Source of the DNA: Lepas anatifera | Lineage: Eukaryota; Arthropoda; Thecostraca; Lepadidae | Assembly: GCA_034440635.1 (NCBI GenBank) | Contig: JAOTON010000895.1 | Span: 310,001 to 374,000 of the forward strand | Direction of reading: 5' to 3' | DNA length: 64,000 bases | Shown: one piece after another, positions 4,050 through 51,013 of the stretch | How the letters are laid out: each line of letters opens with the position of its first letter | Numbering within the stretch: the stretch's first letter is position 1 | The notes under the pieces: model-generated | What the model saw: only the letters and a program-made list of their open reading frames with translations | The model's database searches: none | Told to the model about the DNA's origin: nothing | Made by a program: the position numbers and the translations under genes

Positions 4050-4189
4050 CATAGGCGTAGGAACCGGGGGGGGCCAGGGGGCCACTGGCCCCCCACTTTT
4101 CTGGGATGGGCCCCCGTAACGGAGATAAGAATATCAACAACTGTAATATCAAGCAAGAAACTCAAACTGGCCCGATAGCTTACCCCGGA

Positions 4190-4791
4190 ACCCTGTTAAA
4201 CTTACCTGTGTCCCTAAACTAAGTTGAGGTCCTATGAGTTGATTTTAAGGTCCCCTAAGCTTCTCGGGGCCCCTGAACTGGCCTCTGATGCCATACGAGC
4301 TAATCTGGGCCCTTTGAGCTGAACTGAGCGCCCCTGAGATGGTTTGGGCAGCATGAAATTGCCTAAACTGAGCTAGGAGCCGTAACCTTAAACAGGGCCC
4401 CGTGAGTTGGCCAGAACCTATATCCACCGACCTGGGGGGCCCCTGAGCTGAGCTGGGACCGTAAAGTTAGTATTGTCCCTTGAGCTAATCTGGATCCCCT
4501 GTGATGCACAGAAGACCCTAAACTTATCTGAGGCCCCTGCACAGGAATAGGGCCCCTGCTCTGAAATCGGGTTATAAGCTTTAATTTACACCCCGAACTG
4601 TTCTGAAGCCCCAAATATGCCGACAAGGGGCCCCTGGATGATCCGGGCCCTTGAATTTATCTGATCATCAGAGCTAATATGGGCCTCTGTGTTGAACTGA
4701 GGGCCCCTGAGATGGTCTGGGACCCCTATAAGGCTTTACAGCCACTGACCGGGCGGCCGAGAGCTTGAATGGGCCCCTTGAGATGTTCTGG
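4190..4791 (+). repeat. Type-1 GC minisatellite, left half (GGGCCCCTGAGCTGATCTGG-like)
   Basis: Degenerate units of roughly 20-30 bp read GGGCCCCTGAGCT followed by a variable GATCTGG-like part, all in one orientation. The array is cut at 4791 by the nested element and resumes at 9069 with the same unit type. Frames that stay open across it are repeat artefacts. Confidence 0.8.
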
Positions 4792-4859
4792 CAGTCGTAT
4801 AGCCAGGGGAGGGGGGTCTCAGGGGTCCGCGGACCCCCTTGGGCTGACCTTATGCACTA

Positions 4860-7800
4860 AAAACACAAAAATTGATTTTGGGGGCCCCTGAGCTTGGTCT
4901 CGGGGGGCCTCCCGAGCCTGGTCTCAGGAGGCCCCCGAAAATCGGTATCGAGGGCTCCAGAGTACCGAATATTGATCTTGGGGGACACCTGTGCTCAGTC
5001 CCAGGGGGTCCCGAGCTTGGCCTCAGGGCCCCCCGAGCTTGGTCTCAGGGCCCCTCCCCCGAGCTCAGTCTCACGGGCCTTTCGATCTTGGTCTCACGGG
5101 CCTTTCGATTTTGGTCTCAGGGGCCCCCTGAGCTTTGTCTCAGGGGCCCCGAGCTTGGTGTCTGGGGGCCCTCTGAGCTTGGTCTCAGGGAGCTCCCGAG
5201 CTTAGTCTCAGGGGCCCTTTGAGTTTGGAATCAGGGCCCCTGAGCTTAGTCTCAGGAGCCCCTGAGCTTGGTGTCAGGGAACCCTCCGAGCTTGGTCTCA
5301 GATAACCCCGAGCTTGGTCTCAGGGCCCCCGAGCTTGGTCTCAGGGGACCCCGAGCTTGGTCTCAGGGAGCTCCCGAGCTTGGTCTCAGGTGGCCCTTCG
5401 AGTTTGGTCTCAGGGCCTCCGAGCTTGGTCTCAGGGGCCCCTGAGCTTGGTGTCAGGGAGCCCTCCGAGCTTGGTCTCAGATATCCCCGAGCTTGGTCTC
5501 AGGGCCCCCGAGCTTGGTCTCAGGGGACCCCCGAGCTTGGTCTCAGGCCCCCTCTCCCTGAGCTTAGTGTCAGGGGCCCTCGAGCTTGGTCTCAGGGGGG
5601 CATCCGAGGGCATCTGATGCATAAGGCTGACCGTATGCACTGGAAAACACGAGCATTGGTCTCGGGGGCCCTGATCTTGGTCTCAGGGGGCCACCGAGCT
5701 TGGTCTCAGCGCCCCCGAGCTTTGTCTCAGGGGCCCCGAGCTCGGTGTCAGGGGCCCTCCGAGCTTGGTCTCAGGGAGCGCCCGAGCTTGGTCTCAGGGG
5801 ACCCCCGAGCTTGGTCTCAGGGGCCCCTGATCATCGGTATGGAGGGTTCCAGAGTACCGAACATTGATCTCGGGGGCCCCCTGAGTTCGGACTCACGGAC
5901 CTTTCGATTTTGGTATCAGGGTGCCCCAGAGCTTGGTCTCAGGGTCCCACGAGCGTGGTCTCAGGCGACCCCTGAACTTGGACTCAGGGGCCCCGAGCTT
6001 GGTCTCACGGGCCTTCCGAGCTTGGTCTCAGGGGACCCGATCATTGGTATCGAGGGCTCTGGAATACCGAATATTGATCTCGGGGGCCCGTGAGCTTGGT
6101 CTCAGGGGCCCCGAGCTTGGTCTCAGGGGACAAACGAGCTTGGTCATAGGGGGCAAGCTTGGTCTCATGGGCCTTTCGATGTTTGGTCTCATGGGCCTTT
6201 CGATCTTGGTCTCACGGGGTCTCGAGCTTGGTCTCAGGGAACCCCCGAGCTTGGTGTCAGGGGCCCTCGAGCTTGGTCTCAGGGAGCATCCGAGCTTGGT
6301 CTCAGGGTCCCCTCGAGCTTGGTCTCAGGTGCCCCCGAGCTTGGTCTCAGGGGTTCAGGGCCCCCCTCGGGGTGCCCCCCGACTATTGATATCGAGGGAC
6401 TCATGAGTGAGGCACGAGCATTGGCCTCATGAGACCCAGAGTTTGATCCCAGGGGCCTCCAGGCCTGGGTTCAGGACCCCCGAGCATCGGCATCGAGGGG
6501 CTCCAGAGCACCGAGCATTAGTCTCGGGGGGGGGCTCGAAATATTGATCTTGAGGGCCCCGGAACATCGGTGTCGAGTTACCCCTGAGAAAAGCGCAAGC
6601 ATGGGTCTAAGGGTGCCCCTGAGCCTGATCTAAGTGGGACCCCGAGCTTAGTCTTAGGACCCCCGGGCATCAGCATCAAGGGGCTCCGGAGTATTGGTCT
6701 AGGGGGAGCAATTATTTTAGGGGCCTCCAAATGGTGATTTCAGAGGGCCCCCGAAAGTGTGGATGCAGTGGTGTAGCCAAGGGGGCCCTAGGCGTCCGCA
6801 GACCCCCACCCCTTGGGCCAATCTGAACCACTGCAAATGATTATCTGATCACGGGGCCCCCAGAGTCAGTCTCAGGGGCCCCTGAAGATTCGTTCTCAGG
6901 GTGTCCCGAGTCGGCCTCACGGCCCCCGCCCTGAGAGTCGGTCTCAAGGCCCCCCGAAAGTAGATTTTAGGGGCCCCAGAGGGTTGGTCTCAGGGGCCCC
7001 AAAATTCGGTATCAGGGGCCCCGGGAGTCTGTCTCAGGGGAGGGGGCCGAGCAAGTCTCAGGGGCCCCCAGAGAGTGGTTCTCAGGGCCCTGCAACATAG
7101 TCTATTTCAGGGGAGCCCCTGAGAGTCAGTCTCAGAGAACCCCAAGAGTCGGTCAAGGGGACCCCAAGAGTCTGTCTTAGGGGACCCCGAGATTCGGTCT
7201 CGGGGTCCCCTGAGCGTCTGTCTCAGAGAACCCCAAGAGTCAGTCTCAGAGCACCCCAAGAGTCGGTCTCAGGGGGGCCATCATAGTCTCACGGGCTTCT
7301 CTCTCAGGAGTCAATATTTAGTTTCAGGTGGCCCCGAGAGTTTATCCGGGGGTCCAAGAGTTAGTCTAATTTGATCCGTAGAGTGCTGGTTTCAGGGGGC
7401 CCCAGAGGGGTAATATTGGGAGCCCTCGAGATTTAGCCTCAGGCTGTGCCCCCTCCCCGAGTTTTGGTATAAGCGGCCCCGAGAGTCAATCTCAGGGAGC
7501 ACCCAAAAGTTAGTCTCAGAAGGCTCCTGGTTGTAAGTCTCAGAGACATCCGAGAGTTAATCTCGGGGTTTTGAGAGTAATTTCCAGAGGTGCTCCCGAG
7601 TTTTGGTCTCACGGGCCCGGAGTTAGCCTTAGGCCCGCGAGAGCTAATCTGGAGCCTCCGAGTCAGTCTCAGGAACGCCAAAGACTTAGTCTCAGAGGTG
7701 ATTCCACCCCCCAGGGTGTTTGTCTCAGGGGCGCCCTAGAGTAAGTCTCAGAGGGCTGTCGGAAGTCATTCCTAGCCCCCCGCCCCAAAGACAGCCTCAG

Positions 7801-8060
7801 GAGACCCCAATAGCTAATCTGGATGGCCACGATAGTCAGTCTCAGCCCCCCCTCCATAGCAAATCTGGGGGGCCCAATAATTAGTCTCAGAGGTGCTGCC
7901 GATAACTACTCTCAGGAGCCCCGAGAGATTCTCAGGGGCCCCCAGTTTTGATCAAGAGGCGCCGTGAATCGGTCTCCGAGAGCCCCTGAGATCTAATCGG
8001 GAGAGCGGCCGAAAATTAGCTTTGTGAGCACCGCCAAGTATTGGTCTTAGGTGGCCCCAG
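4860..8060 (+). repeat. Type-2 GC minisatellite (GAGCTTGGTCTCAGGGGCCCC)
   Basis: About 3.2 kb of units of about 21-26 bp, all in one orientation. The first part (4860-6400) is fairly homogeneous around GAGCTTGGTCTCAGGGGCCCC. From about 6840 the unit becomes GAGAGTCGGTCTCAGGGGCCCC. Beyond about 7300 it decays further. Interspersed segments repeat the subterminal region of the host element, for example 5596-5660. Long frames here, including one of 259 codons from 5314, consist only of repeated WSQG/LVSG-type units and are not genes. Confidence 0.9.
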
Positions 8061-8983
8061 AGCTCAAATAAAAAATTTCAAAAACATATGCCTCGGAAAA
8101 AATGTACCTACCCCTATTGCGTACTAAAAAGGACAAATTGAAACATGACGATCAGGCACCATTATCGAAGGAAAGGCAAAAATTAATGTAATTTTACCAT
8201 AAGAGCAAATCGAACAGGGAATTTGGCACTTGAGTCAATTTTTAATATATTAGCTTAACACCAATAACTACATTCCTAAATATTTTGAAATAAACAACTT
8301 TCCAATATTTTCGTGGGAAACCAGACAAACAAGGGTAATGACAGAAATTGATGAGCATAATCCCAAAACGAAAAATAGGTATGAAGGTTGAAAATAACAA
8401 TAACAGAGTGAGCCAAGGCGATAGATATCTTGGGCGCCTTTCGTCTTGGTAATTTGCTCGTTTACAAGATAGCAAGGGTAAGAAAGTAACTGGATCTCAA
8501 CAGGATCTGTCGACGGAATAGAGGATATGTAACGTTCGGGACACACTACCATATCCCTTGTATCTTTATTCGTTTTTTTTTCGTTTCTTTGGAAATTTTC
8601 TGATTAAAGAGTTCATGGATTCGACACCGGGATATAATTGCTAATCATTTCCCGTAGAAGATCATTTCTTCGTACTCAAAACGACTGACCTCCAATAACT
8701 TCATGTCTGAATACCCGAGTGAATTGAGGTAGACTCAGGTTTAACATCATGCGCGCATCAACATTGAACTTCCCGTAATATGGCTCAAAGCTGTTATTAT
8801 AGCCACGCTACCATATAAGGTATGGGTCATCCTTAATATTTGGTGACCTTAGTTTACCAACACTTGGTCGGATCGAAAAAACCATGCTATAAACAAAATA
8901 AGAATGAATGGTTAAAAAGGCACAACAACATTTTCCTCGTGTGAATGTTATAATGTTAAAATGCTATACAAAAAATATAAGAG
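8061..8983. other. Unique AT-rich core of the nested element
   Basis: Non-repetitive, AT-rich sequence between the type-2 array and the right terminus. A 94-codon minus-strand frame (8268-8552) resembles nothing I know. There are no transposase motifs. This may be remnant internal sequence of the hAT-like element or filler captured by it. Confidence 0.4.
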
Positions 8984-9068
8984 ATGGGCCCGGTTACTAA
9001 GGGGACCCCCGGCCTGGGGCCCCCGACGGTAGTCGGACCCCCTTGGCCGAATCCTGGCTACGCCACTG

Positions 9069-9480
9069 TGTTCTGAGACTCTATATCAGCCACCCTGGGA
9101 CCCCCTAAGCCTAGCTGGGCCCTGAGCTAATCTGGGTACCACTGTGCTTAACTGGGGCCTCTGATCTGGTATGGTGGTCCTGAACTGTTCTAGCATCATT
9201 GAGCTAAGCTGAGATCCGTGAGCTTGAACAAGTCCCTTGAGCTGTTTTGAGACCCTACATAAGTCGACCTGGGGACCTCCGAGCTGAACCGGGCCCCTAA
9301 GCTAATCTGGCACCCTGTGGGAATCTGGAACTCCCCTGTGATGAGCTTCTAGGGGTCCTGTGCTTATGTAGGATCCCTTGATAAGCTGGTCCCGAGGCTA
9401 ATGCACTGGTCTAGGCCCTTGAGCTGACTGATCTGGGTTCCTGAGCCATGGTTTGGACCTTGGGGCCCTTCGAGATAATT
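9069..9480 (+). repeat. Type-1 GC minisatellite, right half
   Basis: Units such as GGGCCCTGAGCTAATCTGG continue the array interrupted at 4791. They confirm that 4792-9068 is an insertion into it. The array ends just before a second copy of the outer element's left end at 9498 (CATAGGCATAGGAACCGGGG). Confidence 0.75.
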
Positions 9481-9845
9481 TAGCGGTCCCTGGGCGGCAT
9501 AGGCATAGGAACCGGGGGTCAGGGAGATACTGCTCCCCCTTGAGGTGGGGCCCCGCAACGAATATACAACTACCAGTAACTGTAATATAGAACAAGAAAC
9601 CCAAACGGGCCCGATAGCTTGTCAGGGAACGTTCAAGTTCGGTAGTACGCTGCCTGCAAGCCCCTGGAGGAGGAGCGCTTCGTAAAAAAGTCAAGGCACC
9701 TACTACCCGAGTGTTTCCAAATGAGTCCCAAGTTTTGGGCCCAATCAAACTCCATCCCAATCCCAACACAAAATATGAATCGGACACGGACCCCGCACCA
9801 AATGCCGAGCAACAGTCGTCCCTGAGCCATCGAAAGGCGCGACGT

Positions 9846-10010
9846 CTTTCGATGCCAGGGTTATATGGCGTCGCCAACTCTTTCCCTGTTGGAGGGATTT
9901 CTTGGGAGTCAAATTGCTCCTTGCACAAGGAATCTGCTGTGCCTTAAACCCGAGTTGGTCGCGTGGAAAGCAAGGCTGCTAACCACTATAACACCATGTC
10001 CACACCTCCT
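9846..10010 (-). mobile_element. tRNA-derived SINE copy, degenerate
   Basis: Read on the minus strand it has a diverged tRNA-like head (near 10010), then a body with the conserved AACAGGGAAAGAGTTGGCGA region, ending near GGCATC at 9846. It aligns by eye with the copies at 12707, 23634 and 32537. It lies inside the outer TIR element, so it inserted after that element or moved with it. The frame at 9865-10086 is a SINE translation, not a gene. Confidence 0.7.
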
Positions 10011-10670
10011 CGGCATCACAAAGCTGGCCATCAAGTACCTACATTGCACTTGCAGTTATGCTGGAACTCTGCATTTTAGGCATTGAAATATAGCTAGGCG
10101 TATTTATTGTGATCAGGCTTCACCTAAATCAATCTGTAATGATGACAAGAAGAGATCTGTAATAACCTAAATAAATGTTCCCATTTTCGTCATTGAATAA
10201 GCAAATACAAGTTGATTAGGCATAGCGAAGTGAGGCTATTTGGTACCCAAGCATTGTCTGTAGTTTTCTTAACAGTTCTTAATTTTGTAAATGTGATGAA
10301 AAGGGCCTAAAAATCTGTAAATATAAAAAACGCGCTCGTAGTATAAAATGATTGAAATCCTCCAAAAAAAAGCTTAAAAATGTATTTCGTATTTGAAATG
10401 GGCCTTAGTAAAAAAAAACAAAAAATGTTTTTGGCGTTTTACTATGATTTATTAGATCATAATAGGTACAGCTCGAAATCATAGGGCAAAATTTAATTTC
10501 TCAATTTTCCATATATTGACATCGTTGTGTGCATGCCTGCCTTATTTACACCAAACGAGCTAACTAATTTTTTATTTATAATTATGGGCCCCCGTGGACT
10601 GGGGCCCCCTTGAGGTGGGCCCCCATCTAAGGTTGGCCCCCCCACTTTTCAAACCGTTTCTACGCCCCTG

Positions 10671-11060
10671 ACTATGATACCCAATTTATGACTGTTTTTT
10701 GCGTCGTATTAAAGATATAGACACCAACAATTCTGAAAACCATGACCTTTGATGTCCTCTGGAGATCTTGGTTTCCAATAGTCGTCGACCTCAAAATGGA
10801 CGACAACATGCATATTTTTCGTTTCAAGAACTTTCAAATAGTATTTAAAAACCTGATCTAGCTCTTCGAGAAGTCTAGTTACATCCTGGTGCTGTCAGTC
10901 TCATTTTAGAAGAGCAGAAGCGCCTTACATGGGCTTAGAAATGACGTCCTAATGTTTGGTTATAAGTTGTTAAATCGATTACACTACGGGTCGGCAAAGC
11001 GACGCGCGTCTCACTTAAATCAGCTCGGAATCATTCTTAAAAAATCGATCGGGTCCGAGC

Positions 11061-38696: not shown

Positions 38697-39530
38697 CGAA
38701 CAAAATGATTGGGAGAACGGGGAAATTTGAAATGTAGTTTTTGGGGTCCATCAGCGGCAGGAACAGGATACAAAAATTCCAGCCCTTGGTGTTGAAACCA
38801 ATCGTCAACTGTGACATAACAATTCCAATATTCTCATTACCTCAGAGTGATCATAAACTCTTGGGCTGACCGTTTTTGCCTAGATACACACATTGCCTAT
38901 ACACACTGACTAACTCAGCTTTGACTCCGTAGTTGGTCGTATCCGCCTCCTCCTTCCCGAGTCTTCACGCGCCTCCCTCCATTACTTGCCACATCGGATC
39001 ACACGGAATGTTGCGCTAACAGCCATGCTATTGCCGCAGAAGTGTTATGCGGGGGATAAGATAAAGGAGGAAATGAGGGAGACAAATGCATGTGTCAGGA
39101 TAATGTATGCCAACGGCCAGGATAGTTGTGGTGGAAGTGTCTTCGTACGTGATTTGTTATACAAGAGCAATGATTTACAGAACCCAACGCGAATCTCGCT
39201 TGGTGTTTACTCTATTTGTCTCAACAGTGACTTCTCGTCCAGTGCAACCATGGCACGTGGAATAGAAGAGGCGGCACCGACCGTTTATGAAACATTATCA
39301 GCCCTTAACGTCGCAGAACTGGTGCGCAACCTAAGCTTGGATTTTCTGACTGTCATTTGCGATTTGGATAGTATGGTGTCAAAACTTGTGGGCTCATTTG
39401 CCTTGAATTACGCGCAGAGTTCCGCTGTGTGCTGGGGCTTATGACATGACATATGCTCGGTTTGCAAGGAACGCTGCCGCCAGCAAATGTCAGGCCAGTG
39501 GTGCGCTGGGCTAGGACGTGCGGCGCCGGC
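38697..39530 (+). other. Unassigned, with a 152-codon open frame (38986-39444)
   Basis: The plus frame contains ARIMYANGQDSCGGSVFVRD-like text (VRIMYANGQDSC) and matches no family I recognise. It ends about 90 bp before the 30-bp minisatellite. It has no ATG start at its beginning and no convincing splice sites were identified, so I do not call a gene. Confidence 0.3.
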
Positions 39531-39846
39531 AAAGCCAGCACCAGACACAGCAGCTGCAACAGAGCCAGCACCAGACACAGCAGCTGCAGCAGAGCCAGCA
39601 CCAGACGCAGCAGCTGCAGCAAAGCTGACATCAGACACAGCAGCTGCAGCGGAGCCAGCACCAGACACGGCAGCTGCCGCAGAGTCAGCACCAGACGCAG
39701 CAGCTGCAGCAGTGCTAACATCAGACACAGCAGCTGCAGCAGAGCCAGCACCAGACACAGCAGTTGCAGCAGAGCCAGCACCAGGCACGGAAGCTGGGGC
39801 AGAACCAGCACCAGACACAGCAGCTGCAGCAGAGCCAGCACCAGAC
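39531..39846 (+). repeat. 30-bp minisatellite, left part
   Basis: Units of exactly 30 bp, AGCCAGCACCAGACACAGCA then GCTGCAGCAG. Variants replace GAGCCAGCACCA with TGCTAACATCA. All three forward frames and most reverse frames stay open because 30 is a multiple of three and the unit has no stops; one frame reads PAPDTAAAAE. The array is broken at 39846 by the 8.3 kb element and resumes at 48153. Confidence 0.95.
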
Positions 39847-39935
39847 CAGTGACGGATCTAGGATTTCGTTAAGGGGGGGCCCAGGCTCGGAGGGCGCCGA
39901 ACCTGGGGGGCGCCGAACCTGAGGGGCGCCAATTT

Positions 39936-40409
39936 CAGTCGCGGATCTAGCCGGTCGGTTTGGAAGGGACAAACCACAGTCGAAAAGCAAAAAAAAAAAA
40001 ACGTCACGCAGTCAAAAGCTGCGCCAGCTATATCACTTGCCGGAAGAATTTTGGGGTATTTCAGACGAAGACCCAAAAAAGGGCTCGAGATACTTCTTCC
40101 TATCCAAGGCTGGCTATACTATAACTGAGAATTATTGATATCTACTCCATGATTCTGATGAAGGGTTGTGCCCGAATATACAATCTTCAGTGTTTTTTAC
40201 ATTTCCGGATTCGAGGGGACAGGCCAGGGAACATCTTATCAAATTATGTTCTGTTTGAAGTTGAGAGTTGAAACACCAAAATCTTGCTTATAAACTAAAA
40301 AGGAGTAGGGGAAAAAGGAGGTCGATCGCTTTGGGGGCGAAAACATAGTTTTGTCCCGAGCTTTTCCGTTTGGGGAATGCCATTTTTGCCCCCCCTGGAT
40401 CCGCCACTG
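39936..40409. mobile_element. Nested hAT MITE, 474 bp
   Basis: The left end is CAGTCGCGGATCTAG and the right end the reverse complement of CAGTGGCGGATCCAG. The flanks are GCCAATTT (39928-39935) and GTCAATTT (40410-40417), 7 of 8 identical. It has no coding capacity. It sits 89 bp inside the left end of the 8.3 kb element and is younger than that insertion or carried by it. Confidence 0.78.
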
Positions 40410-40739
40410 GTCAATTTACCACCCAAAAGGCGGCCAGTGTCAATGAAAAACGCGTTTAAAAAAGGATTTGTAAATGCTTATTTTCATGAAGGCTTCTCCT
40501 TAGTGATGACATCTTCACGTTTACCATCAAGCATATTTCGGGCCAGCTAACGACTGGTACCTTGGTAGAAAATGCTGAAAGCACCCACTGACGCTAACTG
40601 AAGCACGATGAGCAAATAATACAGTTATCTTCGGTCATGGCAAAAACTGGGGCGTAGTATCCACCACCTCCACTTATCACAGTTGTCCTGGCTAACGGCT
40701 CCATACTGAAATACCCGATTGACGCTAACCTGAGCCTCA

Positions 40740-41480
40740 TAGGCCGCAGAACCTCTGCGGGCCTGGGCCCCTGAGTTTTTGGTGACTTCCCTGAGTTTAT
40801 ATCGAGTCCCCTCAGCTGATCTGGGACCGCTTTAGTTAACTAGGCTCTCACACTGAACTTGAAACCTATATCTCGCCGCTGAAGCCAATTAAGCTTTTCG
40901 GGGCCCTTTTATCGATATAGGGCCCCATCAACAGGTCCTGGGCCCTCTGAGCTAAAAACTGGAGCTCTGAGCTCTGAGCCCCGAGCTGGATTAGTGTCCC
41001 TTAAGCTGGTCATTGTCCCCTGGGTTGGTATCGTTTTCGTTTAACTGATATAGATCCCTTCAGCTTGTTTGGGGCCCGCTGTGCGTATCTGGACACTAGT
41101 TCGGCGAGCCACCCAGCTAGTCTGGCCCCATTAGTTTTATGGGCCTTCTAAGCTTCTGCAGGTTCCCCTCAGAGTGCCTGGGCCCCATGAGTTGAAAACT
41201 GAACCCCTGGGTTAGTTTTGGGTCCCTGAGCCTATTTAGAAACCGTTTAGATAGGTAGGCACCCCACGCTGGTCTTGAGAATCCTGTGTTGGCACTGAGG
41301 TCAAATGAGCTCGTCGGGCGCCCTTATCTAGGTCCCCCTAACTGGCACGGGCCCCTCAGCTGATTTTGGAGACCCAAAATCCCTCCTACCGGATTCCACC
41401 CTCGCCAGATTTCCTGACTCCCTGAGGGCCCCTGGGGGCCAATGCAGATTTTTCCAGGGATCATCGCTGGGGTCCCTCCC
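40740..41480 (+). repeat. Type-1-like GC minisatellite
   Basis: Degenerate units such as GGGCCCCTGAGTT and TCCCCTCAGCTGATCTGGGA have the same composition and order as the arrays at 4190-4791 and 9069-9480. I could not find hAT ends bounding this array. It adjoins the AGGTCA-rich element at about 41490. Confidence 0.7.
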
Positions 41481-41499
41481 CCGAGACAAAGCTTACAAC

Positions 41500-42300
41500 A
41501 TGTCTCTGTCTATATACTCTAGCATCTGCCAGAGTTGAGCTAGAATCATTTTTAGGCACACTTCGCTTCCTCTCGTTACGGCGAATCATCAAATAATGCA
41601 TAATATGACTATACTAGGTCAAAACATAAAAATGACCTGACTTATGGGTAGGTCAAGGTCACCATCTAGCCTAGCATAGTCAGTATGCATATGAATCAAG
41701 TCACAATAGCAATAAAAATGGTATCAAAATACGGGTTTTATCAATATTTCCAGCAAAGCAATTGACCCAAGTCTTAGAACCTGCTTAGGAAGCCCCAGAT
41801 GAACTCTCAGAGGTAATATGTCTAAACTTGCAACATGAACCGATAAAGAGGCCTAGGATACTATGATTTGGGGAATCCGAAGGTATTCCAAGCGGCGTCT
41901 GCAGACATAGAACAATTTTTCGGCGAATTTCCGTTTTACCCCATGCATTTTCAATGGAGAGGTCATGATTCGTACCTGTCCCTAGGTCATCGATGGGAAA
42001 AATCCCGGGATAAATCTATTAGTACTTTTTGGGCCCATTATATGGTACAAGCTTGAATTCGATAGGTTCACCCTTTTCTTACTTACGCCACCTTAAACAT
42101 TTTTGGGATGAGGTCACTTGAACTGCGCTGGTGACCTGACCTGAGATGACACAACCTTAAATTTTGAGGGAAAGTTGCGGAATTGATCAATGATAAGGGG
42201 TGACAAGTACTGTGTCGCTTCGCGCCGACGTCTTTTCGTGCCACTGGGAGACCTCGAGGGGGTGTTCAAGCACCCCCCCAACGGGCCGGAACGGGGCGTG
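41500..42300 (+). mobile_element. TTAA-type AGGTCA-rich element inside the 8.3 kb element
   Basis: Colinear with 54440-55226. Landmarks are GACTATACTAGGTCAAAACA, CATGAACCGATAAAG, CAATGGAGAGGTCATGAT and the end hairpin GGGGGTGTTCAAGCACCCCC. The right terminus reads GGGGCGTGAAT where other copies have TTAA, and the left terminus is cut by the adjoining array. 42310-42590 continues with further AGGTCA motifs of a different copy. Confidence 0.65.
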
Positions 42301-42589
42301 AATACTCTAGAACAGGACTGAGGCCAAAAAGGGAAGGCTCTAAACAATATCTGCAATTTTTGAGGTCAAGGTCCTTCAAGGTCATTGACCTATTACGGCA
42401 CAACCCAACAAATTAGGCCTAATTTACGCTATAACTAGCGCTGTGCCCAAGCTTACCAATGACCTTTGATCAAGCATTGATCATCAAGGCCAGTGACCTT
42501 TAAAATTGACCTGTAACCTGGATCTTAACACTGAATAACCTTTACTTTGATGTAATTGCATGCGTCATAATAGGTGTCGTAACATTATG

Positions 42590-43770
42590 CAACGTCATTT
42601 AGGGGCTGTCCAGGAGTACCTGTGCTCATCAGGGACACTTATGCTCTCTGGAGGGGCCTTTGCTTCGATGAGGCCCCTGTGCCACCCAGGGGCGCCTTCA
42701 CTCCCCAATGGACGCAACCTAGCTATCCAGGGGCATCTTTGCTGTTCCGGGGGTGCCTTTGATACCCAGTGGCCAAGGGGAGCTTTTTCTTATCCAGGTT
42801 CACCTTGGTATTTAGGGGCGTATTTTTATTCAAGGTAACCTATACTACCCAGTGGCGCCTACCCTATGCAAGGGGCGCTTAGGCTATCCAGGGGGCGGCA
42901 ATTCGCTATACATAGGGCGCCCTTATGCTCTCCATGGGCACCTCATTCAGAGGGTGCCTCTGATATTCAGGGGCGCTTTTCCTATCAGCAGGGTACCTGT
43001 GCCATCTTGGGGCTATTCTTATCAAGGGACGCTGCTGTTATTCAGGAATACCTACACCACTGTCGAGGGTCGCCTTTGCTACCCAGAGGCGCCTTTATTT
43101 CTCAGGAAGTTTGGCGCCCGTGCTTTAAGGAATGCTTTGGCATCGATTGATTGCTCTATTATTGGGCTTAGGTGCGCGTGAACCTTGAGCTCATGTAGCG
43201 CCCATATTGTTGCTAAGGAACGCTTATGCTATCAAAGGGCGCCTTTACTATCCAGGGGCGCTGTTTTATTCAAGGCAGTCTGCTCTATCCACGGGCATCT
43301 GATATTTCGGGGGCGGTGCCTAGGTTATTCAGGGAGGCGGTTTTTTCTCCACAGGGGCGCACTATTGCTTTCCAGGGGCGCCGTTACTGCCCGGGGGTGT
43401 CTTTCTATCCAGGGGCGCACATGCTGTCTAGATGTATTTTTCAATCACAGACATGATTGAAATACATGCCCCTACGTTATCCTGGGTGCTTTTTGTCTCC
43501 GGTGAGGCGCTATTTTTCTCTTTCGGCACCAGTTTATTAAAGGGCACCTATGCTGTCCAGAGAACCTTTGTTATCTGGGGCTTCCTTCGCTACCCAAAGG
43601 GAACATTTTACTTTAATGGAGTGCCTATTTCCATCTAAGCGGCGCATATGCTGTCTTGGAGCGCCTTTGCAAACATGGGGCGCACTTTTCTATCCAGGTG
43701 CGCCTTTGCACTTGAGGGGGCGCCTCTGCAATCCAGGAGGAGCCCAAAATAGATGGAGAATAAAAATTCT
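42590..43770 (+). repeat. Type-3 GC minisatellite (GGGGCGCC), irregular part
   Basis: Units of about 19-35 bp around GGGGCGCCTTTGCTATCCA with much length variation. 43771-44050 is a more degraded segment with GGCGCTC spacers. Frames that stay open here are repeat artefacts. Confidence 0.85.
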
Positions 43771-44050
43771 GAAATAAGGCGCTCGAACACTGAAATAAAG
43801 TGACTAGTTATCAGAAAGAGGCGCTCATCTGCTTAGCGGGGAGGACTGCTGGTTGGTGAGGGCAGCGTTCTCGGAAGTGGGGCGCACATACTGAAAAAGA
43901 CACCCGGTTGCAGCGATGGAGCACTAAGCCTTCAGTTATAGGTTAGCGAAATGTGGTTTAAGGCAGTCCATGCTCAAATTGAGCGCTCGAGCCCTGTAAC
44001 AGAGCGCACGACTGTCGGACAGGTGTGCCAAACCATAGACAATAGGGAAG

Positions 44051-47000
44051 CTGAAGATGGAAAGGGACACCTATGATATCCTGGGGGCGCCTGTACTCTC
44101 AGGTGAGGCGCTTGTTTTCTTTCTCAGGCGCCTAGTTTATCCATGACCGCCTATGCTGTCCAGATCATCTATTTCAAGAAGGGTTAACTTTGCTGTCCAG
44201 GGGCGCCTTTGCTATCCAAGGGCACATATGATATATGTAGGGCGCTTTATGCAGAGGGCGCCTAGGCTGTCCAAGGGCGCCGTCCTAACCAAAGGCCGCC
44301 TTTCACTTCCCTGAATTGCCTATTTCTATGTAAGGGGTGCATATATTATCTAGGAGTGCCCTTGATATACGGAGACGCCTTTTTGTCCAGCGGCGCCTTT
44401 GCTCTTGAGGGACGCTGCTCCAATCCAGGGTAGCTGAAGATGGATAAGGGACATCTATGTTATACAGAGGGAGCCTGTACTTTCCAATGGGGCGCTCATT
44501 TTCCTTCTCAAGCACCTAGTTTATCTAGAGAGCGCCTAGGCTATCCAAAGGCGCCTTTACTATCGAAGGGGTGCCTTCCTAGGGGCACCTTTGCTGTCCA
44601 AAGCACTTGTGTCCAGGGTTGTCTTTGCTGTCCAGTGGCGCCTCCAAAAGTGCATATGATATCCCTGGGCGCTTTATCCAGTGGGTGCCTGGACTATCAA
44701 AGGGCACTTTTTTATCCAAGGGTTGCATTTATTTTCCTGAAGTGCCTATTTCTATCTAAGGGGCTCCTATTCTGTCCAGGGCACCTATGTTTCCCAGATT
44801 TGCCTTTGCTGTCCAGGGACGCCTTTGCTATCCAAGGGCACCTTTCTTAACCAAGGGGCGCATTTTGCTTTCCTGGACCACCTATTTCTATCTAAGGGGC
44901 GCATATGTTATCTAGGAGCGCCTTTGATACCAGGAGGCGGCTTTTTGTCCAAGGGCGCCTTTGCTCTTGGGGGGCGCTGCTCCAATCCAGGGCAGCTGAA
45001 GGTGGATAAGGGGCATCTATGTTATACAGAGGGAGCCTGTATTTCCCAGTGGGGCGCTCGTTTTCCTTCTCGGGCTCCTAGTTTATCCAGGGGGCGCCTA
45101 GGCTATCCAAAGGCGGCTTTTCTATCGAAGGGGTGCCTTCCTAGGGGCGCCCTTGCTACCCAGGGGCGCCTTTGCCGTCCACAGCACTTGTGTTATCCAG
45201 GGTTGTCTTTGCTGTCCAGGGGCGCCTTTGCTATCCAAGGGTGCATATGACATCCATAGGGCGCTTTTTCCAGTGGGCGCCTAGGCTATCAAAGGGCGCC
45301 TTTTTCTGCTCAAGGTGAGCATTTTATTTTCCTAAAGCGCCTACTTCTATCTAAGGGGCGGTTATGCTGTACGGGATAGATATGTTACCAAGATTTGCCT
45401 TCGCTGCCCAGGGGCGCCTTTCCTAGCCAAGGGCGCATATGATATCCGTAGGGTGCTTTTTCCAGTGGGCGCCTAGGCTATCAAAGGGCGCCTTTTTCTG
45501 CTCAAGGTGAGCATTTTATTTTCCTAAAGCGCCTACTTCTATCTAAGGGGCGCTTGTGCTGTACGGGGTACATATGTTACCAAGATTTGACTTTGCTGCC
45601 AAGGGGCGCCTTTCCTAGTCAAGGGTGCATATAATATCCGTAGGACGCTTTTTCCAGTGGGCGCCTAGGCTTTCAAAGGGCGCCTTTTTCTGCCCAAGGT
45701 GATCATTTTATTTTCCCAAGGCGCCTACTTCTATCTAAGGGGCGCTTATTTTGTCCGGGGTACATATGTTACCAAGATTTGCCTTTGCTGCCCAGGGGCG
45801 TCTTTCCTAGCCAAGGGCGCATATGATATCCGTAGGGCGCTTCATCCAGGGGGCGCCTAGGCTATCCAAAGGCGGCTTTTCTATCGAAGGGGTGCCTTCC
45901 TAGGGGCGCCTTTGCTACCCAGGGGCGCCTTTGCTGTCCACAGCACTTGTGTTATCCAGGGTTGTCTTTGCTGTCTAGGGGCGCCTTTGCTATCCAAGGG
46001 TGCATACGACATCCGTAAGGCGTTTTTTTCCAGTGGGCGCCTAGGCTATCAAAGGGCGCCTTTTTCTACCCAAGGTGAGCATTTCATATTCCTAAAGCAC
46101 CTATTTCTATCTAAGGGGCGCTTATGCTGTCCAGAGCACCTAGGTTACCAAGATTTGCCTTTGCTGCCCAGGGGCGCCTTTCCTAGAACAGGGTGCATAT
46201 GATATCCGTAGGGCGCTTCATCCAGGGGGCGCCTAGGCTATCCAAAGGCGGATTTTCTATCGAAGGGGTGCCGTCCTAGGGGCGCCTTTGCTACCCAGGG
46301 GCGCCTTTGCTACCCAGGGGCGCCTTTGCTACCCAGGGGCGCCTTTGCTGTCCACAGCACTTGTGTTATCCAGGGTTGTCTTTGCTGTCCAGGGGCGCCT
46401 TTGCTATCCAAGGGTGCATATGACATCCGTAGGGCGCTTTTTCCAGTGGGCGCTTAGGCTATCAAAGGGCGCCTTTTTCTGCTCAAGGTGAGCATTTTAT
46501 TTTCCTAAAGCGCCTACTTCTATCTAAGGGGCGGTTATGCTGTACGGGATACATATGTTACCAAGATTTGCCTTCGCTGCCCAGGGGCGCCTTTCCTAGC
46601 CAAGGGCGCATATGATATCCGTAGGGTGTTTTTTTCCAGTGGGCGCCTAGGCTACCAAAGGGCGCCTTTTTCTGCTCAAGGTAAGCATTTTATTTTCCTA
46701 AAGCGCCTACTTCTATCTAAGGGGCGCTTGTGCTGTACGGGGTACATATGTTACCAAGATTTGACTTTGCTGCCAAGGGGCGCCTTTCCTAGTCAAGGGT
46801 GCATATAATATCCGTAGGGCGCTTTTTCCAGTGGGCGCCTAGGCTTTCAAAGGGCGCCTTTTTCTGCGCAAGGTAATCATTTTATTTTCCCAAGGCGCCT
46901 ACTTCTATCTAAGGGGCGCTTATTTTGTCCGGGGTACATATGTTACCAAGATTTGCCTTTGCTGCCCAGGGGCGCCTTTCCTAGCCAAGGGCGCATATGA

Positions 47001-47820
47001 TATCCGTAGGGCGCTTCATCCAGGGGGGCACCTAGGCTATCCAAAGGTGGCTTTTCTATCGAAGGGGTGCCTTCCTAGGGGCGCCTTTGCTACCCAGGGG
47101 CGCCTTTGCTGTCCACAGCACTTGTGTTATCCAGGGTTGTCTTTGCTGTCCAGGGGCGCCTTTGCTATCCAAGGGTGCATACGACATCCGTAAGGCGTTT
47201 TTTCCAGTGGGCGCCTAGGCTATCAAAGGGCGCTTTTTTCTACCCAAGGTGAGCATTTCATATTCCTAAAGCACCTATTTCTATCTAAGGGGCGCTTATG
47301 CTGTCCATAGCACCTCAGTTACCAAGATTTGCCTTTGCTGCCCAGGGGCGCCTTTCCTAGAACAGGGCGCATATGATATCCGTAGGGCGCTTCATCCAGG
47401 GGGCGCCTAGGCTATCCAAAGGCGGATTTTCTATCGAAGGGGTGCCGTCCTAGGGGCGCCTTTGCTACCCAGGGGCGCCTTTGCTATCCAAGGGTGCATA
47501 TGACATCCGTAACGCGCTTTTTTTCAGTGGGCGCCTAGGCTATCAAAGGGCGCCTTTTTCTACCCAAGGTGAGCATTTTATTTTCCTAAAGCGCCTACTT
47601 CTATCTAAGGGACGCTTATGCTGTCCGGGGTACATATGTTACCAAGATTTGCCTTTGCTGCCCAGGGGCGCCTTTCCTAGCCAAGGGCGCATATGATATC
47701 CGTAGGGCGCTTCATCCAGGGGGCACCTAGGCTACCTGGGGGCGCTTCATCCAGGGGGCGTCTAGGCTACCTGGGGGCGCTTCATCCAGGGGGCGCCTAG
47801 GCTACTCAGGAGTGTATTAG
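44051..47820 (+). repeat. Type-3 GC minisatellite with higher-order structure
   Basis: The basic unit is 19 bp, seen perfectly four times at about 46279-46350 (GGGGCGCCTTTGCTACCCA). Units are grouped into blocks. A 562-bp period relates 44414 to 44976. Blocks of about 190 bp start at GATATCCGTAGGG-type junctions (about 45441, 45634, 45825). Composite blocks of about 380 or 750-790 bp are marked by CTATCGAAGGGGTGCC at about 45120, 45870, 46257, 47050 and 47427. The last part (47700-47810) repeats GGGGGCGCTTCATCCAGGGG three times. It is one array in one orientation. Confidence 0.9.
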
Positions 47821-48049
47821 TTCCCCATGGCGCAATCTTGCTATCTAGTGGCGCCTTTTTCTTTGCCGGGGCGCTTTTGTTAGCTTTCTAAATTTCATCT
47901 GCAACATTTTACTGGGGCGCAAAAGACCAGTAAAGGCGTCTAATGTTTGGGCAGGGGCGCTTTGCCATGGTTTTAAGGAGTATGTGTTAATTCAAGTGGA
48001 ATAAGTGGTATCTACCACCTTGGCGCACGAGATGGGTACAGGCGCGCCA

Positions 48050-48082
48050 CTCATATCGGGCGCCTTCGGCGCCCGATATGAG
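48050..48082. repeat. Perfect subterminal hairpin (15-bp arms, 3-nt loop)
   Basis: CTCATATCGGGCGCC (48050-48064), loop TTC, then GGCGCCCGATATGAG (48068-48082). It lies about 70 bp inside the right end of the 8.3 kb element and contains the same GGCGCC core as the array. Confidence 0.9.
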
Positions 48083-48152
48083 CTAAGCTCTACTGGGGCG
48101 CTTGGGAGCTAAGGGGGCCCGGGCCCCTGGGCCCCCCTTGGATCCGTCACTG

Positions 48153-49154
48153 CACCAGACACAGCAGCTGCAACAGAGCCAGCACCAGACACAGCAGCTG
48201 TTGCAGAGTCAGTACCAGACACAGCAGCTGCAGCAGTGCTAACATCAGACACAGCAGCTGCAGCAGAGTCAGTACCAGACACAGCAGCTGCAACAGAGCC
48301 AGCACCAGACACAGCAGCTGTTGCAGAGTCAGTACCAGACACAGCAGCTGCAGCAGTGCTAACATCAGACACAGCAGCTGCAGCAGAGTCAGTACCAGAC
48401 ACAGCAGCTGCAACAGAGCCAGCACCAGACACAACAGCTGTTGCAGAGTCAGTACCAGACACAGCAGCTGCAGCAGTGCTAACATCAGACACAGCAGCTG
48501 CAGCAGAGTCAGTACCAGACACAGCAGCTGCAACAGAGCCAGCACCAGACACAACAGCTGTTGCAGAGTCAGTACCAGACACGGCAGCTGCAGCAGTGCT
48601 AACATCAGACACAGCAGCTGCAGCAGAGCCAGCACCAGACGCAGCAGCTGCAGCAGTGCTAACATCAGACACAGCAGCTGCAGCAGAGTCAGTACCAGAC
48701 ACAGCAGCTGCAGCAGAGCCAGCACCAGACACAGCAGCTGCAGCAGAGCCAGCACCAGACACAGCAGCTGCAGCGGAGTCAGCACCAGACACAGCAGCTG
48801 CAACAGAGCCAGCACCAGACACAACAGCTGTTGCAGAGTCAGTACCAGACACAGCAGCTGCAGCAGTGCTAACATCAGACACAGCAGCTGCAGCAGAGCC
48901 AGCACCAGATGCAGCAGCTGCAGCAGTGCTAACATCAGACACAGCAGCTGCAGCAGAGCCAGCACCAGACGCAGCAGCTGCAGCAGTGCTAACATCAGAC
49001 ACAGCAGCTGCAGCAGAGTCAGTACCAGACACAGCAGCTGCAGCAGAGCCAGCACCAGACACAGCAGCTGCAGCAGAGCCAGCACCAGACACAGCAGCTG
49101 CAGCGGAGTCAGCACCAGACACAGCAGCTGCAGCGGAGTCAGCACCAGACACAA
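48153..49154 (+). repeat. 30-bp minisatellite, right part, with 120-bp higher-order repeat
   Basis: The same 30-bp unit as 39531-39846. Between about 48190 and 48600 four variant units form an exact 120-bp super-repeat. Later units are shuffled. Open frames of 324 (plus), 392 and 335 (minus) codons cross it, made only of 10-residue repeats such as PAPDTAAAAE or SGAGSAAAAV. I treat them as non-coding. Confidence 0.95.
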
Positions 49155-50768: not shown

Positions 50769-51013
50769 CATAGGCGGATCCAGGGGGGCAAGGGGGCACG
50801 TGCCCCCCGATCGACCCTCGGCGCCCCCTGAAAGGTCAATGGCGCCCCCCTGAAATGTCGCTTCCCACCCCCCCAGGATACGAAAGTCGGCGCCCACCGA
50901 CAGGATTTGGCGCCCACCTGATAGATTTTGCCGGTCATAAGTGGCGCCCCCCTGGTCCGGATGGCGCCCCCGGGAAGGTGCCCCCCCGATCGGCACTCCT
51001 GGATCCGCCTATG
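50769..51013. mobile_element. hAT MITE, 245 bp, perfect target duplication, short GGCGCC array
   Basis: The two ends are the same 16-mer, CATAGGCGGATCCAGG, in inverted orientation. GTAGACAG flanks it on both sides (50761-50768 and 51014-51021). The interior is mainly repeats of GGCGCCCCCCTG separated by about 15-30 bp of variable sequence. It is a small version of the array-filled elements at 39847 and 4792. Confidence 0.92.

Follow-up and report, generated by a model that had tools for sequence, protein, structure and literature searches.

The genome of Lepas anatifera very probably hosts a large, recently active family of hAT-type transposons with a tandem-array body, in which the elements would be moved in trans by a DUF4371-type transposase while the array varies and rides along. 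This reading comes from the analysis of a 64,000-nucleotide stretch (hereafter the window; contig C844, positions 310001–374000) and from searches of the genome (1.044 Gb, 2,126 contigs). The ends of the family are fixed, every site checked shows an 8-bp duplication, and exact left and right ends each number about a thousand. The array is kept inside these ends, and its length differs between copies by monomers and higher-order repeats. Satellite DNA thereby appears to have been spread around the genome as transposon cargo.

The copy in the window is a complete hAT-type element of 8,306 bp (39847–48152) with an 8-bp target duplication. Its 12-bp inverted end (TIR), CAGTGACGGATC, starts at 39847 and the exact inverse ends at 48152, while the target duplication CACCAGAC is found at 39839–39846 and again at 48153–48160. 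A 30-bp tandem array lies on both flanks (39529–39846 and 48152–49153), and its register is unbroken when the element and one CACCAGAC are removed. A previous sequence-only reading of the window had described the matched inverted ends, CACCAGAC on both sides and the 30-bp array outside, all of which were confirmed; the surrounding minisatellite, however, is a property of the insertion site of this one copy and not of the element. In the window copy, CACCAGAC is also repeated within the flanking array, so the duplication alone is weak evidence here, and the question is settled by 18 further copies with their own, mutually different 8-bp duplications. The features of the window copy are the following:

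39839–39846, no strand: left target-site duplication CACCAGAC, identical to 48153–48160
39847–39935, plus strand: left terminus of 89 bp with the 12-bp TIR CAGTGACGGATC and three GGGCGCC motifs
39936–40409, plus strand: nested hAT-like MITE of 474 bp, recognized by end-like motifs and the duplication GCCAATTT/GTCAATTT
40410–42612, plus strand: left body without detected transposase, 97.9% mean pairwise identity in 17 copies
42613–45080, plus strand: degenerate older part of the GGGGCGCC array, from monomer count and consensus alignment
45081–47827, plus strand: younger part of the GGGGCGCC array, showing higher-order repeats of 192/384 bp and a duplication of 1,173 bp
48050–48082, no strand: palindrome with a perfect 15-bp stem, CTCATATCGGGCGCC TTC GGCGCCCGATATGAG, near the right end
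48083–48152, plus strand: right terminus with the 12-bp TIR; CCCCTTGGATCCGTCACTG terminates 17/17 complete copies compared
48153–48160, no strand: right target-site duplication CACCAGAC

Seven open reading frames of the element (99–169 aa, all within the array) gave no match in Pfam. The palindrome is present (with at most 5 edits) in 18 of the 19 copies examined, being absent from L029, and is fully paired in 13 of these 18.

The interior had been described in the sequence-only reading as about 5 kb of a 19-bp array with higher-order blocks, which agrees well with the measured core array of ~5.2 kb (about 42613–47827) and its 192-bp higher-order repeats. This core contains 257 monomers of the 19-bp unit GGGGCGCC, 205 of them 18–21 bp long, all in one orientation (GGGGCGC occurs 54 times on one strand and 0 times on the other). 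Its left part is degenerate and its right part ordered, with higher-order periods of 192 and 384–385 bp and the 1,173-bp duplication at 97.9%. Aligned to the 19-bp consensus, the three parts of the array scored 328, 290 and 1070; scores of 20 sequence shuffles did not exceed −130, −160 and −300, and those of 20 permuted consensuses did not exceed −14, −104 and 151. Few GGGGCGCC-like monomers are found in the 2.2 kb to the left of the core array (40410–42612).

A genome search with 144 bp of the left end yielded 1,409 candidates, of which the best 40, including the window, were all at least 99% identical. Twenty of the other 39 were fetched as 10-kb stretches; they were chosen as top-scoring matches and therefore lean towards young copies. 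The same right end was found in 16/20, at 7,132–9,626 bp from the left end, and the 8-bp duplications of these 16 complete copies are all different, 15 being perfect and one matching at 7/8 positions (L028). Among the remaining four (L023, L026, L037 and L039), L023 matches the window element only over the first 151 bp of the compared stretch, and L026 and L039 have right ends, by coordinates alone, at 10,859 and 10,126 bp. Overall, duplications were recorded for 19 copies including the window, all different, 18 perfect and one 7/8. Average identity among 17 complete copies is 97.9% for the left body and 97.6% for the right end, and this likeness, together with the intact duplications, suggests that the family was recently active. 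The same ends, differing 8-bp duplications and varying array lengths were what the sequence-only reading had proposed to look for in other copies, and all three were found. L024 has two tandem copies of the right end, at distances of 8,228 and 8,339 bp from the left end, and the target duplication fits the outer copy.

Genome-wide, 996 exact left ends (25-base pattern) and 1,023 exact right ends (19-base pattern) were counted, with 0 for the reversed controls. Among the matches listed, 70/95 left ends are paired with a same-strand right end at a distance of up to 25 kb (median 7.5 kb), compared with 2/95 on the wrong strand and 2/95 in the wrong order. The pairs make use of 68/100 right ends and are spaced by 5–11 kb in 59/70 cases, by less than 5 kb in 2/70 and by more than 11 kb in 9/70; 25/95 left ends have no exact right end within 25 kb, again among the matches listed. 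This count leaves out 5 of the 100 listed left ends, which lie on contigs past C185, beyond the listed right ends. Roughly, with ~1,000 copies of ~7.5 kb, the family would make up ~0.7% of the genome. One locus (C721:124431–135289) combines two left ends with a single right end, an arrangement that recombination or nesting might produce.

The array itself was followed with a 23-base monomer pattern, which has 3,560 exact places (control 0). Among the matches listed (100 of the 3,560), 93 are correctly oriented and sit inside an exact end at a distance of up to 12 kb (60 with both ends, 12 with the left and 21 with the right only); the other 7 are near no end, and none is placed solely in the wrong orientation. 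Grouped into clusters, 30/36 are within 12 kb of an exact end and 6/36 near none, and since each of the 36 holds at most 6 exact monomers, there is no long free array among these listed matches. One place near no end (L043) has three monomers outside element ends, near another MITE. The position of 93/100 listed monomers inside the ends argues that the satellite spreads as part of the transposon.

The picture in the window could also come from a free satellite array that two hAT ends flank by accident: hAT-like ends are common in this genome, and in this copy the 8 bp of the duplication are found again in the adjacent array. The sequence-only reading had itself pointed out that such a chance bracketing would show in ends that are never paired elsewhere or in an array lying mostly outside them; the opposite was found on both counts, with 70/95 left ends paired against 2 and 2 in the controls and with 93/100 monomers and 30/36 clusters inside the ends (among the matches listed). 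The 18 other copies with their own duplications, the same-strand pairing of the ends and the monomers inside them, with no long free array in the 36 listed clusters, refute the accident, to which we assign practically no weight. The hierarchical repeats also recall foldback-type elements, in which long inverted repeats are made of tandem repeats. Here, however, the array keeps to one strand (54 versus 0 for GGGGCGC) and the inverted ends measure only 12 bp, by which this alternative is refuted as well and its probability is negligible.

With regard to classification, hAT elements have short inverted ends beginning with CAG and a duplication consensus of nTnnnnAn. By its build the present element is a hAT transposon: the family shows 8-bp target duplications (19 copies), the 12-bp inverted ends CAGTGACGGATC, and a hAT transposase frame between the same ends with the duplication CCTCAGGC, in an element of which ~10 kb lie outside the examined sequence. 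Three other classes were considered and rejected. MITEs are short, usually under about 800 bp, and are ruled out by size (8.3 kb in the window, 7.1–9.6 kb in the 16 other complete copies). Helitrons are without target-site duplication or inverted ends, both of which are present here. Free satellite DNA does not fit clusters of which 30/36 lie within 12 kb of an exact end, with at most 6 exact monomers each (among the matches listed).

The history of the array can be approached through the 474-bp MITE nested in the left part of the element (39936–40409), which was overlooked in the sequence-only reading. It is flanked by the duplication GCCAATTT (39928–39935) and GTCAATTT (40410–40417), and GCCAATTT was found to the right of it in 16/20 fetched copies. 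All 17 complete younger copies compared contain this MITE; in L024, a 67-bp deletion covers its right end. The empty site (28-base pattern) has 28 exact places genome-wide (control 0), and one of these MITE-free places, L044, is a complete element of 8,174 bp with the duplication GTGCTTAT (8/8), large pieces of which are ~88–91% identical to the window copy. The array of L044 has 75 monomer-like hits versus 95–134 in the 17 younger copies, and the higher-order marker occurs once versus 6–12 times in each of them; in its left 89 bp, 18 bp are missing, including one of the three GGGCGCC motifs. Judging from this one older copy, the array is probably older than the nested MITE and the higher-order repeats probably spread later. 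Because the MITE-free L044 has an array with just one higher-order marker, the array seems to have grown as the family spread. It is also unlikely to be a recent pick-up, since it predates the MITE that all 17 younger copies have and L044 lacks.

Differences in array length were tallied as gaps relative to the window copy (77 array gaps of at least 10 bp in 15 copies, L027 being left out because of a large insertion), where gaps shared by descent are counted repeatedly and are not independent. Of the short gaps (10–60 bp), 27/47 deviate by at most 1 bp from 19, 38 or 57, compared with 18% expected for uniform sizes, and 11/22 of the long ones (170–420 bp) deviate by at most 3 bp from 192 or 384. 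Similarly, L034 (99.1% identical) lacks 1,175 bp of the window copy, approximately the size of the 1,173-bp duplication. Slippage, unequal exchange or repair of the excision gap could change the length of the array, and each new length would be carried onward at the next jump of the element, so that the transposon would act as a vehicle of the satellite. Distances between copies correlate weakly among left body, old array and right end (r 0.42 for left body and array, 0.18 for left body and right end, 0.27 for array and right end; reached by 128, 291 and 130 of 2000 permutations, respectively), and exchange between copies is therefore possible. Besides that, a TTAA-flanked MITE of ~1 kb is inserted in the arrays of L021, L038 and L040; in L021 and L038 it occupies the same array TTAA in opposite orientations.

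A candidate source of transposase was obtained from a genome search for the hAT dimerisation domain, in which the best 150 of 1,241 candidates were all above the cut-off, many of them in long frames. The match at C115:144331 is enclosed by ends of the family, the left one at 139828 and the right one at 163765, which are 23,938 bp apart and share the perfect duplication CCTCAGGC. The frame is unbroken over 881 codons and matches DUF4371 (6e-12) and Dimer_Tnp_hAT (1.9e-8); the nested MITE is absent from this element. Compared with the window copy, the left 89 bp are 87/89 identical and gapless, and identity is 85.9% over the 319 aligned positions that follow; the palindrome, amid otherwise diverged sequence, matches at 33/33 positions. 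The same array type adjoins the right end (~80% identical, 55 monomer-like hits in 2.1 kb). Since this 23.9-kb element combines the unbroken transposase frame with the same type of array, the array is not confined to non-autonomous copies. The sequence-only reading had proposed a non-autonomous hAT that became or picked up a satellite and moves it as a unit: the unit with its own ends is borne out by the other copies, while a recent pick-up does not agree with an array older than the MITE, nor a restriction to non-autonomous elements with the array in C115. The 23.9-kb element contains further repeats, some offset by ~713 bp beside the transposase frame and others of 144 bp close to its left end.

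Among the 120 protein matches listed, the relatives of the transposase with organism names come from animals (insects, rotifers, frog, Branchiostoma, Acropora); frequent protein names are "52 kDa repressor of the inhibitor of the protein kinase-like" and "zinc finger MYM-type protein 1-like". The highest identity among all 120 is that of the best match, 41%. No solved structure matches it at E 0.1. In the genome, one other close copy was found (best 52 of 779 candidates), on C2126, with 95% and 87% identity in two pieces; it is probably broken, since the pieces lie in different frames. The next best match is a 68% fragment, and the others are lower (best 52 of 779). The C2126 copy lies behind the same left end, with its frame 6.9 kb from the end versus 4.4 kb in C115, and two stretches between frame and left end match C115 at ~94–97%.

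The assignment of the transposase to the 23.9-kb element, ~10 kb of whose interior are outside the examined sequence, rests on this C2126 match and on the search for separate ends around the frame (an 8-bp duplication with 11-bp inverted ends starting with CA), of which none were found in 9.1 kb that extend only 1.9 kb beyond one side of the frame. The frame could also be an unrelated hAT nested in this element, with the family moved by another hAT transposase. Such transposases are abundant in the genome, as the 150 best candidates illustrate, and ~10 kb of the element lie outside the examined sequence, but both close transposase copies (best 52 of 779) sit behind the same left end, two stretches between frame and end are shared by C115 and C2126, and no separate ends were found in the examined sequence around the C115 frame. 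We consider an unrelated nested hAT to be quite improbable. The available sequences strongly indicate that the family is moved in trans by the DUF4371-type hAT transposase of a rare 23.9-kb sister element.

The left terminus contains three copies of the GGGCGCC core and the right palindrome two (inverted), while the array repeats it along its whole length, and on this account the array may multiply transposase-binding sites, a possible role by analogy with other transposons. One step further, the array would be selected cargo, with the extra binding sites aiding a copy in the competition for transposase. Several observations are in line with such selection: GGGCGC exceeds single-base shuffles with 3 occurrences in the left 89 bp (P 0.002) and 6 in the right 322 bp (0/5000), the left terminus and the right palindrome are nearly identical between the window and C115 although the bodies differ, and only 2/70 paired copies (among the matches listed) are shorter than 5 kb. 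Precedents are described for Galileo, with binding sites within repeats (PMC3688188), and for Hermes, whose BED domains attach to a quasi-palindrome in the subterminal region (PMC10368747). However, a comparison of the core with the rest of the monomer did not reveal selection on the array core (conservation of 0.74 versus 0.72 in the oldest, 0.74 versus 0.68 in the middle and 0.76 versus 0.77 in the youngest part), which disfavours selection on each site. The likeness of the whole monomer to the termini of the window element is marginal (its score is equalled by 9 and 17 of 300 shuffles), the older copy L044 is without one of the three left motifs, and in the available text on Hermes auxiliary binding inside the ends is judged unlikely to matter in cells (PMC10368747). 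Selected cargo is therefore a doubtful proposition in our view.

Related arrangements are known from other transposons. Hermes makes an 8-bp duplication and is not known to carry a large array, and the TU elements of sea urchin combine short tandem repeats, 8-bp duplications and long inverted repeats. According to the available text, Hermes shares with the present family the short inverted ends, subterminal repeats, a subterminal quasi-palindrome and a hAT transposase, of which two BED domains bind the quasi-palindrome (PMC10368747). In Galileo, a member of the P superfamily, internal tandem repeats hold transposase sites and share a motif with the ends as here, but its repeats lie within long inverted ends and their binding has been studied (PMC3688188). 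Another likeness is to Tetris of Drosophila virilis, a foldback element whose internal tandem repeats, possibly derived from its own terminal sequence, seed satellite DNA; it is described with ~220-bp repeats in long inverted repeats, three structurally complete copies and a suggested Mutator affiliation, its repeats also form long free arrays, and the available text mentions no autonomous partner found (PMC4079207). The present family differs from Tetris in that its repeats are 19 bp long and share a single orientation, its exact ends number about a thousand, there is a candidate for an autonomous partner, and the 36 clusters examined (among the matches listed) include no long free array. The same paper refers to a foldback element of sea urchin (PMC4079207), and minisatellites linked to transposable elements in rice (Inukai 2004) and soybean are cited or tabulated in PMC6947457, PMC4079207 and PMC9659126; the soybean case concerns an LTR retrotransposon, unlike the hAT-type element here. 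Our literature search covered titles and abstract openings, with most subscription journals outside its reach, and found no hAT element with a satellite or minisatellite like this one, which leaves absence unproven.

Transposon-borne satellites are thus already known; distinctive is that a large, hierarchically ordered minisatellite forms the regular body of a hAT family with about a thousand exact ends and also occurs in its candidate autonomous partner. It has long been asked how satellites come to lie at many unlinked places and what gives rise to higher-order repeats; on both points, about a thousand insertions of one array, from a poorly ordered older form (one copy) to ordered younger ones, offer a natural series of array growth, with a candidate transposase on hand for direct tests. 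The family also raises the question of whether tandem arrays are selected as parts of transposons or tolerated as debris.

The association of ends and array is not limited to this family. A second hAT-like element in the window (4792–9068) has the flanks TGTTCTGG/TGTTCTGA (7/8) and a 23-bp GGGGCCCC array (also GTCTCAGGGGCCCCCGAGCTTG). Genome-wide, exact matches number 1,523 for its 20-base right end and 1,125 for its monomer pattern (controls 0). Among the matches listed, 47/80 monomers have the right end on their own strand, no more than 10 kb downstream, compared with 0, 0 and 1 for the other arrangements, and 30/51 clusters are associated; this count covers contigs C1–C123 and leaves out 20/100 listed monomers and 2/100 listed right ends past C123. 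The second hAT-like family with its own minisatellite hence shows the same association. One might go on to propose that the genome hosts a whole class of satellite-bearing hATs, several families each with a GC-rich minisatellite built around its own end motif, where the array would be a working transposase-binding platform and transposons the main means of satellite spread; we regard this as tentative and rather unlikely.

Further candidates were seen in the window. A third one spans ~4050–10670, with the ends CATAGGCGTAGGAACC and TTTCTACGCCCCTG and the flanks ACTATGAAT/ACTATGAT; its body has, by eye, a degenerate GGGCCCCTGAGCTG array, and the second element is nested in this candidate. Part of the left body of the 8.3-kb element (40740–41380) resembles this array, likewise by eye. 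Finally, a short hAT-like MITE lies at 50769–51013, with inverted CATAGGCGGATCCAGG at both ends and the perfect duplication GTAGACAG.
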